From Oscillospiraceae bacterium (GTDB taxonomy: Bacteria > Bacillota_A > Clostridia > Oscillospirales > Oscillospiraceae), in the NCBI GenBank assembly GCA_016302015.1, contig JAEDOJ010000011.1, positions 1-17,013 of the forward strand: a stretch of 17,013 bases of DNA, in the 5' to 3' direction. The notes under the pieces are model-generated. The model worked only from the letters and a program-made list of their open reading frames with translations. It did no database searches and was not told where the DNA came from. The stretch's first letter is position 1. Each line of letters starts with the position of its first letter. Positions 1,926 through 11,105 of this stretch are shown here, in pieces. A program made the position numbers and the translations under genes.

Positions 1926-3176
1926 TTATTTTTTCACCTCATACCGGACAGACTCTCCGGCGTATAGATCGGAGAACCCAAGGCCGGGATCTGTGGAAAT
2001 GATCACAGCATTGTCACAGTATATGGTATCGATTCCTGTTTCGGATTTCTCCTGCAGCGCCGCCGGGTCAAATTCCTCCGAAGTAAACAGGGGAAGCAGC
2101 TCCAGCGCAATTTCCGCGCAGGATTTCTCGGAAGAAATACCGACGAAATCATTTACAGAGGATTTGCACAGGCCATCCTCTAAATTGACATAGGGCGTTC
2201 GGATTTCTCCGTTTTCCAGTTCGTAATAATGAATCTCGTCCATTGCGCTCAACCCAAAATTCCGGAAATACACCAGGTTGGCAGGTGCGGTATACTCCAC
2301 AGACGCCGCCTGATAGACTGTTTGCCCAATGCGGTCAAAGAGGTTGAAGGAATATCGATCGCTCTCCTCCCCCAAGGTGGCGGAAAAACCGTCAAAGCTG
2401 GAAATCGTGCCATACCGGTAGCCGGCGTCCGACAGGGACTTTGCGGTATAATCCAGAATAAATGCGTTTCTGAGCCAGAAAAAATCAAGATATTCCGTAA
2501 TACCATTTTCCTGGGCATAGGCCTGGTATGCATCGGAGACATACAGCTCTACGGTGGAATTTCCCAGCAGTTTCACCTGAACCGCCTCAGGATCATGGGC
2601 AAAGGTGAGAATTTCCCCGAAATATGTCCTGATTTCTTCGTTCTGGTAGGGGTCGAAATAAACGGTATCGCTGTCGTTGGTACAACTGAACAGTCCTCTG
2701 TACTGCTCATAAACCGGGGCGAGGTAGAGGTAGCGGCTGTCCTGCAGCAGCTCAAAAGCCTCATAGAGAGGGGCCTCTACCTGTACCGGTTGGTTCACAT
2801 GACGGTTCAGGTAGTAGATATTGGTATGCTCCGGAAAGCTCTCGTTGGTGAAGAGCATATATCCCAGATCCGTCGCCTGGGTGTAGGCTTCAGAAATCAG
2901 CTTGTACTCTGCGGTTGCGCCCAAATCACTTGCTCCCAGATGGTACTGGAAGGAGAATTCCTGAGCGCAAACCGTCTGTGCTTTGGAATTGGTCTCGATG
3001 TCCCGCCAGCCCTTCTCCGTGGTAAGCAGCTTCAGCACGCCCACGGAGAATGCCGCAAGGGCAATCACAGCAAAGACGATCATTAAGATAAACCGTACTT
3101 TTTTGTGACTTTCGGACAAATTGATCTTTTGCACCTCACGCAGAGGAGATTCATGTTTTCTTGCTGATCGCTTCAT
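1926..3176 (-). CDS. membrane-anchored ApbE-like (degenerate flavin-transferase fold) protein
   Basis: The 416-residue protein has a basic cytoplasmic N-terminus, one hydrophobic helix (about 28-51) and a long hydrophilic extracytoplasmic part. It has no signal cleavage site or lipobox, so it is probably a signal-anchored surface protein. The order of motifs resembles ApbE, the FAD:protein FMN transferase: a strand-helix start after the membrane segment; YYLNRH (121-126) where ApbE has S-x-L-N; LDYTAKSLSDAGYRYGTIS (241-259) where ApbE has KGYAxD, a helix and a strand; RTPYVNLEDG (326-335) for HxxDPxTG; and CAEIALEL (353-360) for the metal-binding ADALxTAL. Key residues are changed: the His of HxxDP is absent, Asp of the ADA motif is Glu, and the KG is lost. 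I infer a non-catalytic or repurposed ApbE fold; homology is weak by eye. It starts 18 nt after oppF with a modest ribosome site (CAGGTACGAG), so it is the last gene of the opp operon and may assist peptide uptake. Confidence 0.6.
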   Translation of the reverse strand: MKRSARKHESPLREVQKINLSESHKKVRFILMIVFAVIALAAFSVGVLKLLTTEKGWRDIETNSKAQTVCAQEFSFQYHLGASDLGATAEYKLISEAYTQATDLGYMLFTNESFPEHTNIYYLNRHVNQPVQVEAPLYEAFELLQDSRYLYLAPVYEQYRGLFSCTNDSDTVYFDPYQNEEIRTYFGEILTFAHDPEAVQVKLLGNSTVELYVSDAYQAYAQENGITEYLDFFWLRNAFILDYTAKSLSDAGYRYGTISSFDGFSATLGEESDRYSFNLFDRIGQTVYQAASVEYTAPANLVYFRNFGLSAMDEIHYYELENGEIRTPYVNLEDGLCKSSVNDFVGISSEKSCAEIALELLPLFTSEEFDPAALQEKSETGIDTIYCDNAVIISTDPGLGFSDLYAGESVRYEVKK

Positions 3177-3194: not shown

Positions 3195-4508
3195 TTAAAT
3201 TGTAGCCAGCAACAGCAGCGCACCAAATATCAGAATCACCACTGCCAACAGGGTCAGACTGATCACAGCGCCCTTTCGGCATGCTTTAAAGTTGCGGATA
3301 TAATTGTGTTTTCTGAAAATAAATGCGGCAATCAAACCAAAAATAGGCAGGAGGAAGGACAGGAGGGCATACCAGAAGCTGCCGGTATCATGCACCGGGC
3401 GGGCCTTGATAAAGTCGCCGCTGGACATCTCATTTTCTTCCTTGGGCTTCTCCTCTTTCTTGGTCTCGGGATCTACAATGGTGATGCTCTTCAGAGGCAC
3501 GCCGGCTTCCCGCTGTTCCTTGTACTTTTCGATCTCAGCCTTGTTGCCGTAGACATAGTGTCCGTGGCCGATGCAGACCATCTCAGGCTTGTCCTCGCTG
3601 TAGTCATGGACGGAGGGATCGTAGGTAAACAGCTCCTTATGCTTCTCCAGCTTGGGATCGGGAATAGGAATTGCGGAAATCAAAGAACGGGTATAGGGAT
3701 GCAGAGGATAGTTAAACAGCTCTTCAGCCTCCGCAACCTCAACAATATTACCCTTATAGATAACGCCGATGCGGTCGGAAATAAAGCGGACGATGGACAG
3801 GTCGTGGGCAATAAACAGGTAGGTGGTCTGACGCTCCCGCTGGAATTTCTTCAGCAGATTCAGAACCTGGGCACGAATGGAGACGTCCAGTGCGGAGATG
3901 GGTTCATCTGCCACAACCAATTCCGGCTCCATAATCATGGCTCTTGCCAGGCCGATTCTCTGGCGCTGACCGCCGGAGAATTCATGGGGATAACGGGTCA
4001 GATGCTCAGGCAGCAGACCGACCTCGTTGATCATGTTTTCTACCTTTCTGACCCGGTCGGCCTCATCTTCATAGAGATGGAAGTTGTACAGACCTTCAGA
4101 AATGATATAGTCCACGGTGGCACGTTCGTTCAAAGACGCCGCCGGATCCTGGAAGACCATCTGGATATTCCGAATGACTTCACGATCCAGAGAACGGGGA
4201 ATCTTGCCGTTGATCTTTACGCCCTTATACTCGATGGAACCGGCAGAGCAGGGGTTGACCCGGATGACGGCACGGCCGATGGTGGTCTTACCGGAGCCGG
4301 ACTCGCCAACCAGGGAGAAGGTCTCACCCTTGTAGATGTCGAAGGAAGCGTTCTTGACCGCCTCGACCTTATTATCTCCCTTTCCGAAGGTAATATCTAC
4401 GTTTTTTACGGAAAGGAGAATTTCCTTGCCGTCCTCAGTCTTCGGGCCATGCTCAGGCAAATGCCGAACCTTGACATCTTTATTTTTCAGTTCAGTTTGT
4501 TTACTCAT
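3195..4508 (-). CDS. oppF: oligopeptide ABC transporter ATPase OppF/AmiF with a two-helix membrane tail
   Basis: One of two ATPases powering peptide import through OppBC. Visible motifs: Walker [10 protein letters not shown] (68-76), Q-loop VFQDP (Q120), signature SGGQRQR (178-184), Walker B LVVADE (197-202), D-loop SALD and switch His235. The region after the ATPase core ([23 protein letters not shown], about 301-325) matches the way streptococcal AmiF proteins end and lacks the Cys motif found at the end of many DppF/OppF proteins. AmiF normally stops near here (about 310 residues). This one continues for about 105 more: a charged linker rich in Lys/Glu (345-372) and two hydrophobic helices (about 376-398 and 412-435). 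The start at 4508 has a strong AGGAGG site 7 nt away that overlaps the oppD stop. The ATPase call is firm; the role of the tail is unknown. Confidence 0.95.
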
Positions 4509-4519
4509 GGCAGCCCCTC

Positions 4520-6268
4520 CTAAATATTGAAAGCATTCAGCAGCTTTTCGTGCAGATTCTGAATCGCTTCCGGCTTTTCGATCTTAGGCGCTCTGGGGTC
4601 AAGCAGCCATGTCTTTGCAAAATGCGTGTCCGTGATCTGGAACATGGGCGGCTCCTTCAGGGTGTCGATCTTCAGGCAGTAGGGATTTCTGGGCGCAAAG
4701 GGATCGCCGACGATCTTGTTGTACAGAGAAGGAGGCGTGCCGGTGATGGAATACAGCTTGGTATTTCTCTGCGCCAACTGGGGCAGAGAGGAAAGCATCG
4801 CCCAGGTATAGGGATGGCGGGGATCATAGAAGACTTCCTCCACCGTGCCGAGCTCCACGATCTGTCCGGCATAGAGAACCGCAACGCGATCCGCAATATT
4901 GGCGACCACGCCCAAGTCGTGGGTAATGAACACGATGGTGTAATTGAATTCCTTCTGCAGATCCTTGATCAGGTTCAGAATCTGCGCCTGAATGGTAACA
5001 TCCAGAGCGGTGGTGGGCTCGTCGCAAATCAGGATCTTCGGCTGGCAGGACAGAGCGATTGCGATAACAATTCTCTGACGCATACCGCCGGAATACTGGA
5101 AGGGATAGTCATCAAACCGGTTTTCCGCATTGGGAATGCCGACCTTCTTCATCAAATCCAGCGCCCGAACCCGAGCCTCGGCCTCAGAGCAATCCTGATG
5201 CTTCAGAATAATGGAGGTAATCTGCTTGCCAATGGTGATGATGGGGTTCAGAGAGGTCATGGGATCCTGGAACACGGTGGCGATTTTGCTGCCACGGATC
5301 TGAGACAGATCCTTGGAATAGCGAATGTTGGCCAAATCCAGTTCGCAGGTGCCGTGGAGCGTTTCCGGCGTCTCATCCAAAAACTTCACACGGAAGGCCA
5401 CGGTGCTGAATACATTACTGCGCTCTACGTCATTATCCAGATCAACGCCCAGACGCATGGCTTCCTTCACCGCTGCCTCCAGCTTGGAAACCAGCTTCAT
5501 GCGGTGATAGAAATCATAACGACCCACGGAGAGGTAGATTTCCTTGGCAATGACTTCGTTCCGGTCGATGATGGTCTGGGGAACCTCCTGCTTACACTCC
5601 TGAGCGTACTTCTCCTTCAGCTGCGCCATCTTTGCGGCGTAGGTTTCCTGATAGGCGGTGTCGTTCTTTGCGGCAGTCTTATGCTGAGCGATGGTCTTTT
5701 CCTTTTCTTCCTCCAACGCCTTGATCTGTGCGTCGAAGGCAGCGATCTGATGGGCAGTCTCCTTGATTTTGTCCTTTTCCTTGGACGGATCAAAGGTCTG
5801 CTTCAGGTTGAACGCCTCGGTGCGCTGGAACTTCAGCTCCTCCATTCTGGCAGTGAAGCTCTCATCCTCCTCGTCGCTGAGGACATACTTTGAACGCTTT
5901 TCGGCCTCCAGCTCAACGATCTTCCGGTAGGTTGCGGCACCAAGCTCCAGCTTGGAGTAGCTGTTCAGCTTCTTATGGATGCCGCGAATGGTGCGACGCT
6001 CGGAGGCGCCGATCATCACGGTGGTATCCGCAAGCTCGGGATCATTGAACAGAATCTTGCCATGATCGATATAGCCGTTGGAATCCAACATATTGGCAAA
6101 GGTCTTGGTAAAGACGGACTTGCCGGAGCCGGACTCGCCTACGATGGCGATGGACTCATTTTCATAAATATCAAGAGAAATGCCGCGAATTGCAGTGAGG
6201 ATTCTGCCGCGGACGCGGAATTTCACAACCAGGTCCTGTACGGACAACAATACTTTCTTTTCTTCCAT
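4520..6268 (-). CDS. oppD: oligopeptide ABC transporter ATPase OppD/AmiE with a large coiled-coil insertion
   Basis: The partner ATPase of OppF. Motifs: Walker A GESGSGKS (44-51), Q-loop [11 protein letters not shown] (Q334), signature YSGGMRQR (392-399), Walker B ILICDEP (412-418), D-loop ALD (421-423) and switch His450. The C-terminal peptide-family region ([40 protein letters not shown]) closely follows AmiE. The length is 582, against about 355 for AmiE. The excess is a single insertion between Walker A and the Q-loop, from about residue 80 to 310, after ILFNDPEL and before [17 protein letters not shown]. The insert is charged and helical; 112-225 looks like coiled coil rich in Lys, Glu, Ala and Gln. 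All catalytic motifs are intact, so the ATPase should be active. The ATG at 6268 follows an AAGAGGGTG site, 12 nt after oppC. It also lacks the C-terminal cluster cysteines known in some OppD proteins. Confidence 0.95.
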
Positions 6269-6280
6269 AGCAGCACCCTC

Positions 6281-7258
6281 TTACATATGCGTTCTGGGGT
6301 CAGATGCGTCGCCCAGGTTCTGGCCGACCACATACAGAACGACAGTAATGATGGAAGCCACGACGACAGGGCTCCAGAACTCAAAGCCCCAGCCGGGAGT
6401 CAGCATTGCGCTTTCTGCGGAGTAGATCAACTTACCAAGGGACATATCCTTCAGGCCCATGCCGATATAGGACAGGAACACTTCGTAGGAAATATAAGAA
6501 GGAATCTCAGTTGCGGTCAGGGTCACGATGACGGAGGTCATGAAGGGCAGAATGTTCTTCATGGCGATACGGATGGTAGAGGTGCCCAGACAGCGGGAAG
6601 CCAGATTATATTCCCGGTCTCGAATAATGATAACCTGCGTTCGGATAAAATATGCGATGCCAAGCCAGCCGGTGACGGTCATTGCCAACACCATGGTCCA
6701 GAAGCTGGCACTGAAGATCATCACCATGACGGAGATCAGCAGGATATAGGGAACGTTGGCAACGATGTTGTAGACCTCCTGCATGATGATATCCACCTTT
6801 TTGGAGAAGCCCCAGATGGCGCCCACAATGACGCCGATGGTGAGGTTGATCGCCGCACACATGAAGGCCAGAGAGATGGAGATCCGTGCGCCGTTCCAGA
6901 TGGCGTCAAAGGTGGATTCACCGGAGGCGCCACGGCCAAGGATGGTGGAGAAGCCGAAGCCGCCCTGCTCAATGGCAGCCGCAGGAGAAAGATGCTTCAT
7001 TTCGGGGTTTCTGATGTTGGCAAACTGGTCATAATTGGAAAACAGGGGATAAATATAGGCAAATCCAATCACCACTGCCAGCAGCACCAGAATGATAATA
7101 TTGATCTTCTTGCGGAAGAAGACACGGAACACGGACGCCCAGTAGGAATACCGGGGCGCAGTGATTTTTTCGGATTCCTGATCCTTGTGATCAACATGAG
7201 CAAAGAGCTCGTCGTCAGACATATGCAGATCCTTCAGATCAACGAGGTTATTCTTCAT
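6281..7258 (-). CDS. oppC: oligopeptide ABC transporter permease OppC/AmiD
   Basis: Second membrane subunit of the peptide transporter. From the chosen start it has 325 residues: an acidic cytoplasmic N-terminus of about 45 residues, a first helix (about 51-72), an external segment ending in GASGESTFDAIWNGARISIS (typical of the DppC/OppC entry to the transport domain), then about five more helices. The cytoplasmic coupling loop EYNLASRCLGTSTIRIAMKN (about 216-235) is the EAA-type motif that contacts the ATPase. A GTG at 7267 forms a GTGA overlap with the oppB stop and would add three residues. I prefer the ATG at 7258 because AGGTGA, an exact match to the 16S tail, lies 5 nt before it. Gene order and spacing place it between oppB and oppD in one operon. 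Confidence 0.95.
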   Translation of the reverse strand: MKNNLVDLKDLHMSDDELFAHVDHKDQESEKITAPRYSYWASVFRVFFRKKINIIILVLLAVVIGFAYIYPLFSNYDQFANIRNPEMKHLSPAAAIEQGGFGFSTILGRGASGESTFDAIWNGARISISLAFMCAAINLTIGVIVGAIWGFSKKVDIIMQEVYNIVANVPYILLISVMVMIFSASFWTMVLAMTVTGWLGIAYFIRTQVIIIRDREYNLASRCLGTSTIRIAMKNILPFMTSVIVTLTATEIPSYISYEVFLSYIGMGLKDMSLGKLIYSAESAMLTPGWGFEFWSPVVVASIITVVLYVVGQNLGDASDPRTHM

Positions 7259-7263
7259 GTCTC

Positions 7264-7269
7264 TCACCT
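7264..7269 (-). promoter_or_regulatory. ribosome binding site that decides the oppC start
   Basis: Minus-strand AGGTGA, within AAAGGTGAG, lies 5 nt before the ATG at 7258 and overlaps the TGA stop of oppB. It supports initiation at the ATG rather than at the GTG at 7267, which itself is part of this site. Confidence 0.6.
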
Positions 7270-8835
7270 TTCTTTCGTATTGAATGAGATCCGAGGATCG
7301 ACCATGGCCATAAGGACGTCACCCAGAATCAGGGAAGTAACCGTCAGGACGGCGTAGAACAGGGTCACACCCACGATAACGCCGTTATCATACTGGTTAA
7401 TCGCCTTGGTCAGCAGATTACCGGCACCGGGAACTACATAGACACGCTCGGTGATGATGGCGCCGACCAGACAGAACATGATATCTGCGGGGATGTTATG
7501 AACCACGGGGATAGCCGCATTCTTGAGAATGTGCTTGGTGAAAATTTCGCCCTCGGAAAGGCCGCCGGAACGAGCGAACTTGACATAGTCAGAGTTCATC
7601 TGGTCGATCATATAGCGGCGGAGCCACTTCATCAGGCCAGCGGCGGAAGGCAATGCCAGAGAAATAATGGGCAGGATATACTGGAGCTTCGTACTCTTTT
7701 CCATCTCAAAGGTGGCAGGCAGACCGATCTTGCTGCCGATGGCCTTGAAGAGGAAGATATACGCCAGAGAAGGCACTGCCATAATAAAGACGATGTAGAC
7801 CGTACCAATCTTGTCCACCAGCTTGTCCTTCTTGCGTGCCATCAGGATGCCAAGGGGAACGCCCAGCAGGTAGGCAAGGGCAATGGCAAAAATACCAATG
7901 ACAAAAGAGAAGCCGATCTTGGACATATTGTTGCTTTTGGTCAGAACACTCGTATAATCGTCAACGTAACGGGATTCAAACACCAGACTGGAGCCTAAAG
8001 AACCGGGAGCGTAGGTGGCAGTATGGAGATCGTCTGCAGTTTCCTCCACCAAACCGGTGGGATAGGTCGCGACTGATGTCTTATGGGAACCCTGGGACTG
8101 GGTCATGGTAGTGAAAACATCCACGCCGGTATTCACGGAATAGGACTTGCCCAGATTCAGGGACAGAAGATTCTGATGGATAAAGGGGAACTCGCCATCA
8201 AAATACAGGAGATACTTGTGCGTTGTACCATTACCCATAATCGCCGGTGCGAAGGTGTCGCCTCCGTAGACAGGGTCATGGAGGGTAAAGGTCAGTCCGC
8301 GCTCACCGATGTCTTCCTCCACATTGTGGATGTTGTCCACGGTGAACAGACCGGAAAAATAGGATACCAGTCGATTGATCAAAGGAATATCCTTATAGGC
8401 AAACAACTGGGGCTGGCCGCCATCCGCAATCTTTCTGCCGGCCAGAGTCACTGCGTCCATACGTTGCGTCTCGTAACCCTTGGACTTATAGTATTCAATA
8501 AATTTCTGGGTATACTCTTCTGTCAATGCACTGTCTTTCTCAGGAGTTCTGCCCAGAGCGGCTGCTTCTTTCCGAGTTTCCTCATCAATCTCGCCATTCT
8601 TTGCAAGCTCATTCAACCAATCACCGTAAGGAACATAGTCCAGATAACCATACTCTTCCCACTTACGATACTTATAGGTTTCCTTCTGATTGTTCTGCTG
8701 ATGGGAATAAACAGGGTCAGAAGCAAAGATAAGGTTCCGATCCAACAATGCATAAATCATGACCATAACGATCGCCACGACCGCAATTACAGAGAGTAAA
8801 GCATGCAGTATGCGTTTCAGTAAATATTTAGTCAT
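7264..8835 (-). CDS. oppB: oligopeptide ABC transporter permease OppB/AmiC with large extracytoplasmic domain
   Basis: First membrane subunit of the importer, 523 residues against about 310 for ordinary OppB. A first helix (about 9-31) is followed by a long extracytoplasmic domain (about 32-305) and then the usual permease core with five helices (about 307-333, 344-366, 385-405, 450-470, 485-511). The cytoplasmic coupling loop is visible as DYVKFARSGGLSEGEIFTKH (416-435), followed by ILKNAAIPV. The C-terminal GDVLMAMVDPRI is typical of the family. Large domains at this place are a known trait of AmiC-type permeases, and the motif HKYLLYFDGEFPFIHQN (206-222) fits that group. The ATG at 8835 has only a modest GTGAAAG site. 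The 89-nt gap from oppA holds a strong hairpin, so the permease may be made in lower amounts than OppA. Confidence 0.95.
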   Translation of the reverse strand: MTKYLLKRILHALLSVIAVVAIVMVMIYALLDRNLIFASDPVYSHQQNNQKETYKYRKWEEYGYLDYVPYGDWLNELAKNGEIDEETRKEAAALGRTPEKDSALTEEYTQKFIEYYKSKGYETQRMDAVTLAGRKIADGGQPQLFAYKDIPLINRLVSYFSGLFTVDNIHNVEEDIGERGLTFTLHDPVYGGDTFAPAIMGNGTTHKYLLYFDGEFPFIHQNLLSLNLGKSYSVNTGVDVFTTMTQSQGSHKTSVATYPTGLVEETADDLHTATYAPGSLGSSLVFESRYVDDYTSVLTKSNNMSKIGFSFVIGIFAIALAYLLGVPLGILMARKKDKLVDKIGTVYIVFIMAVPSLAYIFLFKAIGSKIGLPATFEMEKSTKLQYILPIISLALPSAAGLMKWLRRYMIDQMNSDYVKFARSGGLSEGEIFTKHILKNAAIPVVHNIPADIMFCLVGAIITERVYVVPGAGNLLTKAINQYDNGVIVGVTLFYAVLTVTSLILGDVLMAMVDPRISFNTKER

Positions 8836-8859
8836 AATCTTTCACTCACTTATTATCGT

Positions 8860-8892
8860 CAAGAGGGTGAACTGCTGGAGTCCACCCTCTTG
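8860..8892 (-). promoter_or_regulatory. intercistronic hairpin between oppA and oppB
   Basis: A perfect 10-bp inverted repeat (CAAGAGGGTG, 8860-8869; CACCCTCTTG, 8883-8892) with a 13-nt loop that can pair three more bases. No T-run follows on the minus strand, so it is not a standard terminator. In binding-protein-dependent operons such hairpins commonly stabilise the upstream mRNA or cause partial termination, giving more binding protein than permease. Confidence 0.75.
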
Positions 8893-8924
8893 CGCTTAGT
8901 CATTCATTACGATGCAATTGGATA

Positions 8925-11105
8925 TTAGAAGACACCCAGGCACTTGGTCATGTAGCCTGCGTAGTCAGGCAGCATGGTATCCAGATAGGTCTGAGGATCG
9001 CCGTAGTCGGGGCCCCAACCGGAAACATCGTAGATGTTGTAGTTGGCGTCTGCACCGGTATCAGCATAGTAGCCAGCATAGTACCAGTCAGCAGATTCAG
9101 CGCACTCAACCAGGTTGATGATCACAGCGCCGCCCAGAACTTCTTCCACAGACTGCTTGAAGGTGTTAGCACGGTTCAGGAAAACCTCGGAACCGGAGTA
9201 GCAGGGCAGATCCAGGTAGATGGGGTTCGCAGCGGAGACCTCAACGCCGTTGACAGCCAGCTCTTCAACAGCCAGTGCCAGTTCAGCAACAGCAGCGGTG
9301 GGGTTGTACCAGCCGTCAAAGCTGTCGGAGGTCAGGTTAACAGGATCCCATACGGTCAGCGGGACGCCGTCAGCGTCGATCTGAGCCTGAACGATCTCAC
9401 CATAGAAGGTGCCTGCGGGGAAGGTGGTCTCGGTGCCGTTGATGTCGATGGTAACATCCTCGGTCAGGAAGACGAAGTTGCCGGGGGTGTAGGTGTTACG
9501 CAGGGAGTTCAGCTTCAGCTCTTCGCCCTGGGTCTGTGCGTTGTAGGAAGCACGGTCGATGGACATGTTCAGAGCGCGGCGGAAGTGGACGTTACGCATA
9601 GCCATGTTGGCACGGGCGCCGTCTTCTTCGGTCATGGTGGACACAGCGATGGTCTCGTCGTTGAAGTTGGCGTATGCGGAGCGGTTCAGGTTGAAGAATG
9701 CGCAGAAGGAAGTAGCGTCGGTCTCGGAGACGTATGCATACTCGTCGAACAGGCCGTCAGCCTTTGCGGCTTCCAGAGCGGCAGCGTTCAGACCGGCACC
9801 GGACAGAACACCGGCCTTCAGGTCATTGTAGGCCTTGGTGGCATCCTGGCCATCGTTGAACAGCCAAGTCAGGGTCTTGACGGTGATGTTGTCAGCGTTC
9901 CAGTAGGCGTCGTTGGCAACGAAAACAATGCTGTTTTCAGCAGTGTGGTTGGTAACACGGTAGGGACCGCAGTATGCGATGGAGTTGACGTCCTTGCCAT
10001 ACTTGTAGGAAGGATCTTCGCTGTTATACTCAGCGCCGAACTTGCCGCCCATGGACTCGTAGTAAGCTCTGCTCATGGGAGCGAAGACATTGTAGCCCAG
10101 CATGGTCATGAAGTAGGGGCAAACATCGGTCAGAGTGTATTCCAGGGTGTAGTCGTCGATCGCCTTGACGCCAACTTCGGAGAAGTCAGTGATATCGCCG
10201 TAGATGTACTCAGAAGCGTTCACGATGATGCCTTCGACCAGGTATTCCAGGCCGCCCATGGCGTCCATCATGTGCTGCATGCCGGCAACAAAGTCGTCAG
10301 CCACAACGTCAGCGACCTCACGGCCCTGAGAGTCAACCCACTTCAGGCCTTCACGGAGCTTGAAGGTGTAGACGGTGCCGTCAGGGGAAACCTCAACGCT
10401 CTCAGCCAGAGCAGGCTGCTGAACGCCTTCTACGTCGTACTCATACAGGCCATCGAAGGTGTTGACGATGGCTTCGGAGTCAGCGGCGCGGGAGGTTGCC
10501 AGAGCGTCCCAGGTCTGGGGATCGGAAGCATAGCCGATGGTGTAGGCGTCGGTCAGAACATAGCCCTTCTCGGTCAGGAAGTTCTTTGCCCACTCTTCGT
10601 AGGTGCCGGTGCCCTTCAGCTCTGCGTACTGAGCCTTCATTTCAGCTCTGTCAGCAGCGGTGATGAACTTGTCGGTGACCAGCATGTTGTGGAAACGATC
10701 GGAGTCGTTGCCCCACAGAGCATTGCCGTAGCCATAGGGAGCCGCGCAGGAGATGGCGTAGTTGCCGCCCTGGGTAGACAGGGGCAGGAACGTGCCGGAG
10801 GTCAGCAGCTTTGCCTCAGCCTGAGCCATGAGAGCATATCTCAGGGACAAGTTGTTGACCTCTCCCTTGCCGGCCTCGTACAGGGAGATGAACTCACCCA
10901 GAGCCTCGTCGTAGAGGAGAGCGGAGGCTTCGTCATAGGACAGGCCAGTGACGTCAGCCATGGTTTCAAGGACGTCTTCAGTAGCTTCGGTAGCTTCGGT
11001 AGCCACTTCAGACGTTGCGGTGGTTTCTTCGGTATTGCCGGAGCAGCCAGCAAACAGGCTTGCAACCAGAGTCAATGCCAGAAGAAGAGCAATCAGTTTC
11101 TTCAT
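8925..11105 (-). CDS. oppA: oligopeptide-binding lipoprotein OppA/AmiA, apparently circularly permuted
   Basis: Surface peptide-binding protein (SBP family 5), 726 residues. A signal peptide ends in the lipobox LFAGC with lipid-bearing Cys21, followed by an acidic Ala/Thr/Glu linker. The usual family start is not here but at about residue 186: YTIGYASDPQTWD, then FDGLYEYD (217-224) and the family signature PDGTVYTFKLREGLKW (241-256). The usual late motif GWGPDYGDPQTYLDT (696-710) is only 16 residues from the end, although AmiA proteins continue for well over 100 residues. The missing tail appears instead at residues 48-182: GLSYDEASALLYDEA, SLRYALMAQAEAKLL, FLPLSTQGGNYAIS, KFITAADRAEMKAQY and EEWAKNFLTEK match the order and spacing of the AmiA C-terminus. 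The ATG at 11105 follows GGAGGTAAGAAA. It heads the operon, so it should be the most expressed gene. Confidence 0.93.
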   Translation of the reverse strand: MKKLIALLLALTLVASLFAGCSGNTEETTATSEVATEATEATEDVLETMADVTGLSYDEASALLYDEALGEFISLYEAGKGEVNNLSLRYALMAQAEAKLLTSGTFLPLSTQGGNYAISCAAPYGYGNALWGNDSDRFHNMLVTDKFITAADRAEMKAQYAELKGTGTYEEWAKNFLTEKGYVLTDAYTIGYASDPQTWDALATSRAADSEAIVNTFDGLYEYDVEGVQQPALAESVEVSPDGTVYTFKLREGLKWVDSQGREVADVVADDFVAGMQHMMDAMGGLEYLVEGIIVNASEYIYGDITDFSEVGVKAIDDYTLEYTLTDVCPYFMTMLGYNVFAPMSRAYYESMGGKFGAEYNSEDPSYKYGKDVNSIAYCGPYRVTNHTAENSIVFVANDAYWNADNITVKTLTWLFNDGQDATKAYNDLKAGVLSGAGLNAAALEAAKADGLFDEYAYVSETDATSFCAFFNLNRSAYANFNDETIAVSTMTEEDGARANMAMRNVHFRRALNMSIDRASYNAQTQGEELKLNSLRNTYTPGNFVFLTEDVTIDINGTETTFPAGTFYGEIVQAQIDADGVPLTVWDPVNLTSDSFDGWYNPTAAVAELALAVEELAVNGVEVSAANPIYLDLPCYSGSEVFLNRANTFKQSVEEVLGGAVIINLVECAESADWYYAGYYADTGADANYNIYDVSGWGPDYGDPQTYLDTMLPDYAGYMTKCLGVF
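10977..11003 (-). repeat. three 9-bp tandem repeats in the OppA linker
   Basis: Three copies of GCTACCGAA (the last with two changes) encode A-T-E three times, residues 35-43, just behind the lipobox. The stretch is a flexible acidic tether between the membrane anchor and the folded part. Its copy number could vary by slippage without a frameshift, since units are 9 bp. Confidence 0.8.

Follow-up and report, generated by a model that had tools for sequence, protein, structure and literature searches.

A 17,013-nucleotide stretch of contig JAEDOJ010000011.1 from an Oscillospiraceae bacterium (the window) carries an oppA-like receptor gene on its minus strand, which is the first gene of an operon with the order oppA-oppB-oppC-oppD-oppF. 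The encoded protein of 726 residues is very probably the peptide receptor of an Ami-type importer, with the AmiA/AliB fold in genuinely permuted form: the segment that ends AmiA-type proteins lies near its N-terminus, and the canonical start follows behind it. The permuted order, its conservation, its single origin, the operon and a breakpoint in lobe 2 are supported by sequence and prediction. New here are the permuted peptide receptor, the exchange of lobes and its recurrence; a natural permuted receptor of cluster B was already known. The parts of the gene are as follows.

8925..11105, minus: permuted oppA-like receptor gene, 726 residues, open reading frame from 11105 down to 8925, with GGAGG 7 bases before the ATG
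11046..11105, minus: signal peptide, residues 1-20, with an LFAGC lipobox read by eye
11043..11045, minus: lipobox cysteine Cys21, the expected site of lipid attachment, from a motif search
10965..11042, minus: flexible linker rich in E, T and A, residues 22-47 (predicted local distance difference test score, pLDDT, <50 at residues 15-45; Cys21 to Y57 is 36 residues)
10614..10964, minus: moved segment, residues 48 to ~164, with homology to the C-terminal region of AmiA/AliB
10551..10613, minus: new connector, residues ~165-185, running from the former C-terminal helix to the former N-terminal strand, with a predicted helix at 169-179; unmatched in the AmiA alignment
8928..10550, minus: main part, residues 186-726, with AmiA homology from the N-terminal strand to just past WGPDYxDPxTYLD
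9003..9017, minus: WGPDY motif, residues 697-701, invariant in 83 sequences

Rotated segment order

The Pfam profile PF00496 (SBP_bac_5) matches residues 230-713 with 146.3 bits against a cut-off of 32.4, and we take receptors of this family to be cluster C substrate-binding proteins. The name also appears in an excerpt of PMC12136057. NCBIfam OppA equivalogs score below their cut-offs (PRK15104, 86.2 bits versus 947; MMSYN1_0169, 116.1 bits versus 650). Order-blind annotation hides rearrangements of this kind: no Pfam family is accepted ahead of residue 230, NCBIfam is blank in 48-185, and the profiles of both miss the moved segment.

A phmmer search against PDB sequences aligned residues 186-712 with AmiA (8a42) 14-498 at 256 bits, in agreement with the original prediction that the canonical N-terminal start lies at about residue 186. 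A second, out-of-order stretch placed residues 55-160 on AmiA 509-618 (chain of 638 residues; 13.9 bits), and such stretches were also obtained with AliC (15.1 bits) and AliB (10.4 bits). Because these second stretches are weak by themselves (10-15 bits, expectation value (E) 0.05-1.4), a profile hidden Markov model (HMM) of the tail was built from an 83-sequence alignment of permuted proteins, cut to residues 48-185. The tail HMM matches the C-terminal part of canonical relatives, behind the main part, with E down to 3e-11. When the window protein was rejoined in canonical order, it gave one collinear match each to AmiA, AliB, AliC and AliD, in every case with a score above that of the native order, and AmiA 15-618 was covered as a single match in the PDB sequence search. 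For 21 of the 23 canonical relatives tested, the real tail placed behind 186-726 scores higher than every one of 20 shuffled tails. Each segment has its homologue once in a single canonical chain, the two in exchanged order, as in a natural permutant, and the predicted match between the N-terminal segment and the C-terminal part of AmiA-type proteins is borne out by sequence, profile and reordered chain alike.

The extent and the edges of the segment differ somewhat from those first proposed. Where the AmiA tail had been assigned to residues 48-182, similarity is clear over ~55-165; the positions matched by the tail HMM correspond to window residues ~66-166, residues 48-65 are placed more by position than by similarity, and ~165-185 is connector. 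The exchange of ends is reciprocal, as had been claimed, but the breakpoint is not seamless: in pairwise alignments 21 (against L095) or 31 (against L081) residues of the canonical loop have no counterpart, and a connector of ~20 residues (about 165-185) links the old chain ends. The protein stops 17 residues after the TYLD motif, not 16.

Several observations weigh against a permutant. Among 39 non-permuted locus reading frames with a main-part match, 21 have a tail HMM match and 18 have none at E 0.01; five of these 18 are 5'-cut ends of permuted-family genes, and the rest are mostly distant receptors, two kinds among them. All 120 best-listed relatives of a second kind of permutant, described below, match the main-part HMM and have no tail match at the same threshold. 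The tail adds nothing over shuffles in the other two of the 23 canonical relatives (L067, L071), and for only 17 of the 23 does the reordered chain score higher than the native order, with a gain of at least 5 bits in only four (L091, L090, L095, L069); the gain is small because the program also sums separate stretches. Lastly, the position of the tail in the fold rests on homology and model confidence, the structural alignments being sequential only, and a model of the tail alone, with no alignment supplied, was poor (pLDDT 55.7).

Predicted fold, lobes and lipid anchor

The monomer structure was predicted with confidence (pLDDT 91.2; predicted template modelling score 0.87) as a complete fold in one chain, and the tail and connector are also confident in this model. 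AmiA/Ali and other peptide receptors were the nearest structural matches. Foldseek and VIA-align, both sequential, lay residues 184-726 on AmiA 33-533, with 493 residues in the sequential alignment, and leave about the last 125 residues of AmiA unpartnered, so that 184-726 by itself lacks a complete canonical topology.

Sequence and model together support a placement of the old chain ends side by side in lobe 1, as the original prediction had it for canonical termini, and, more sharply, of the new ends in lobe 2. With this placement the lipid anchor should shift from lobe 1 to lobe 2. A canonical receptor chain runs through lobe 1, lobe 2 and the end of lobe 1, and the chain of the window protein would run from the end of lobe 2 through the whole of lobe 1, unbroken, to the rest of lobe 2. 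The receptor would still close its two lobes on a peptide and then pass the peptide to OppBC. Peptide capture is expected because the residues that hold the amino end of the peptide are retained: W697 and D700, both invariant in the 83 sequences, align with AliD W498 and D501, which have this role according to an excerpt of PMC11192437. The leash would be altered: a flexible linker, spanning 36 residues between the cysteine and the first helix, would tie the lipid anchor to lobe 2 and not to lobe 1. Lipidation is predicted from the signal peptide with its lipobox cysteine (Cys21). In a motif search, a lipobox and a tail match occurred together in 118 of 121 window-type permuted proteins (class A), whose median distance from cysteine to first helix is 35 residues; in 18 canonical relatives, the median distance from cysteine to first strand is 16.5 residues. 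The operon suggests that the permuted receptor binds oligopeptides and feeds the permease; peptide uptake, lipidation, the geometry of the anchor in the cell and any effect on hand-over are presumed throughout.

Compared with AmiA, AliB, AliC and AliD of pneumococcus (PDB 8a42, 8qlj, 8qlh, 8qlc), the window protein is homologous over most of its length, including the extra C-terminal region, and retains the peptide-holding W and D. It differs from them in its rotated order with ends in lobe 2, which departs from the canonical sequence of segments, in a shorter last-helix region joined by the new connector, and in a longer leash. A precedent for the rearrangement is TpMglB-2 (Tp0684), a permuted glucose receptor assigned to "Type Ic / Cluster Bc" in an excerpt of PMC4990184. 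Like the window protein, TpMglB-2 is described there as a natural permutant and a lipoprotein receptor of an ATP-binding cassette (ABC) importer, with relatives in Gram-positive gut bacteria. It has a cluster B sugar-binding fold, in which the first three N-lobe strands go to the C-terminus of the chain and remain in the N lobe (PMC4990184, same excerpt), whereas the window protein is a cluster C peptide receptor whose ends have moved to the other lobe. Its closest structures place it among AmiA/Ali and other peptide receptors and outside cluster Bc. TpMglB-2 is the only natural permuted receptor in the open-licence PMC literature as searched by title and start of abstract, a scope that most subscription journals lie outside; no natural permuted peptide receptor was found there.

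A canonical receptor truncated at its end and fitted with an unrelated N-terminal domain would agree with the profile searches, in which PF00496 is found only over 230-713 with no accepted family before it and NCBIfam gives nothing in 48-185. It is very improbable, given that the N-terminal part is homologous by profile to the missing C-terminal part, that reordering yields one collinear match to AmiA, and that shuffled tails score lower in 21 of the 23 relatives. The moved segment might instead complete the fold of a neighbouring molecule in a domain-swapped dimer, the form in which AliC crystallised according to an excerpt of PMC11192437, and the present model covers the monomer only; with tail and connector confident in that monomer, we consider such a dimer improbable. 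The chance of an assembly error or a decayed gene is negligible, since the 726-residue frame is open and both Butyrivibrio hungatei DSM 14810 and many separate assemblies show the same order. We conclude that circular permutation of the AmiA/AliB fold is the best account of the protein.

Distribution and recurrence of permuted receptors

The rotated order is shared by close homologues, which, together with the profile homology and the reordered collinear match, upholds the original prediction of circular permutation. An order census spanned 2448 sequences. The tail is N-terminal in the window protein, in all 120 best-listed database proteins (the best 120 of 6108 matches) and in 70 locus proteins (63 distinct), and C-terminal in 31 locus proteins (22 distinct). 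None of the 222 proteins matching both main part and tail has the tail at both ends, as would an intermediate of the duplication and trimming that the original prediction proposed as a possible route. The cultured Butyrivibrio hungatei DSM 14810 is among the named permuted members. The surveys, scored by match range, give permuted proteins in 13 genomes out of the 250 from one probe's family (G378, which is split over two contigs, and two probe genomes are among these), in 5 of 291 genomes of a class (two are probes, and one genome is also in the family survey) and in 2 of 299 genomes of a phylum, both probes. These counts are lower bounds, since no more than three or four candidates were scored in any one genome.

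A tree of the contiguous region common to both orders, built from 55 chosen rows (with the long branches L069, L070 and L089 dropped after a first quick tree), places the 27 permuted proteins in one clade (100/99). The sister group of this clade consists of four canonical AliB-like proteins (L112 and three from G297; joint support 98/90). Because this sister group and other Ami-like relatives are canonical, the permutation is the derived state.

Some loci have peculiarities of their own. L035 carries a canonical and a permuted receptor gene on one contig (238 and 7725), ~7.5 kb apart, and in L051 the permuted gene is split over two open frames (6464 and 7381), perhaps by an assembly frameshift. 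In L085 a canonical Ami-like receptor is preceded by a fused copper amine oxidase N-terminal domain (PF07833), and the N-terminal extensions of L084, L086 and L087 resemble that of L085 by eye; L084-L087 were rejected as permutation intermediates on account of the identity of the L085 extension. The PF27766 label borne by some relatives had no match in the Pfam profile search.

A second kind of permuted OppA appeared in the class survey, in which L103 and L104 (P0123) have the WGxDY motif near the N-terminus. Among the best 120 of 6729 relatives of L103/L104, 13 are permuted (P0123-P0131, P0134, P0137, P0142 and P0223) and 107 are canonical; among the source names are Caldanaerobius polysaccharolyticus and Mahella australiensis, the latter on a contig of 3.1 Mb. 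Like the window protein, these receptors are of cluster C and permuted, with ends that probably lie in lobe 2. Their break falls ~55-63 residues before the W of WGxDY in most pairwise alignments, whereas that of the window protein lies behind it, by 12-27 residues at one edge and 44-49 at the other; they are of standard OppA length, and OppB has 322-329 residues in two of their loci. Two comparisons begin earlier (-81 and -85) because the linker is drawn into the alignment, and between P0123 and P0132 the break is seamless to one residue. The Pfam profile falls on this kind in two stretches in all four proteins tested; the larger of the two lies C-terminally and stops near profile position 280. 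The lipobox pattern was not found in P0223, one of the 13.

A tree of the main part of this second kind, built from the 13 permuted proteins and 51 canonical representatives, needs three placements of the permuted form, and forced grouping was rejected by the approximately unbiased (AU) test (p 5.9e-39). The tail tree likewise separates three permuted groups (p 2e-4); P0223 has different nearest rows in each tree, all of them in one larger clade. A single event followed by recombination finds no support, as the three groups are kept apart in the main-part tree and in the tail tree. With the window family added, alignments and trees point to at least four permutation events, all four of which would put the ends in lobe 2, provided that the break maps as aligned. 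Exact reversals to canonical order would lower this count, and one gain with two exact reversals is unlikely.

Any effect of the permutation on transport is unproven. In an Escherichia coli Dpp structure, a DppB motif touches both lobes of the receptor (excerpt of PMC12136057), and by analogy a change of the anchored lobe could matter. We suggest tentatively, as a possibility that we ourselves doubt, that peptide receptors of Clostridia were permuted at least four times, with ends and anchor passing each time from lobe 1 to lobe 2; if this is true, the lobe that carries the leash would be a trait under selection in Gram-positive importers, altering how the receptor docks on OppBC or waits beside it. 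An even chance attaches to a neutral account, which accepts the permutation and opposes this functional reading: loops of lobe 2 would be permissive, and the anchored lobe irrelevant to transport. Clustered breakpoints in related OppA proteins fit a permissive loop, long class A leashes would blur a change of geometry, and for the cluster B permutant no evident benefit is seen by those who described it (excerpt of PMC4990184). Neutrality accords less well with an order retained down to 42% identity (L107), with connector residues G165-T166-G167 and G181-Y182 that are invariant or almost so across the 83 sequences, or with the placement of the ends in lobe 2 in all inferred events, four being too few for a statistic. 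Natural permutants of this well-studied fold, which is known in its canonical order, are available in cultured Butyrivibrio, Mahella and Caldanaerobius as material on the role of the anchored lobe in peptide hand-over.

The opp operon

The features downstream of the receptor gene are listed below.

8857..8894, minus: strong RNA hairpin in the oppA-oppB gap (z -3.4; by eye no T run behind)
7264..8835, minus: oppB permease, 523 residues, with the permease domain at 325-517 and a long extra stretch in front
6281..7267, minus: oppC permease, from family profile searches
4520..6268, minus: oppD ATPase, 582 residues, with an insert within the ATPase
3195..4508, minus: oppF ATPase, 437 residues, with a hydrophobic C-terminal extension

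Of the 56 loci in L001-L060 that reach 6 kb, 48 retain the order A-B-C-D-F; seven of the remainder have fewer genes, presumably cut at contig ends, and L060, the eighth, is canonical. The mollicute OppABCDF system (MMSYN1_0165 to 0169) provides the top NCBIfam matches of window OppA, OppB, OppC, OppD and OppF, all below cut-off. On the mollicute OppA profile, fragments taken from the main part map in canonical order to 49-733 of 896, and the tail fragment has no match on that profile, where its place is presumed. A permutation shared with mollicute OppA, to which these NCBIfam names had pointed, is accordingly not supported.

The hairpin at 8857-8894 is of a type that could hold oppA messenger in excess. 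The C-terminal extension of oppF resembles two membrane helices by eye, which is unusual in an ATPase subunit. A sixth operon gene (1926-3176, minus, 416 residues) encodes one membrane segment and an outer part, as read by eye; profile searches gave it no accepted Pfam or NCBIfam family, and a relative of it sits behind oppF in 34 of the 56 loci. Window OppD matches the mollicute OppD profile from one end to the other (717 bits against a cut-off of 740), and OppD has only 360-383 residues in the canonical loci L112 and L114.
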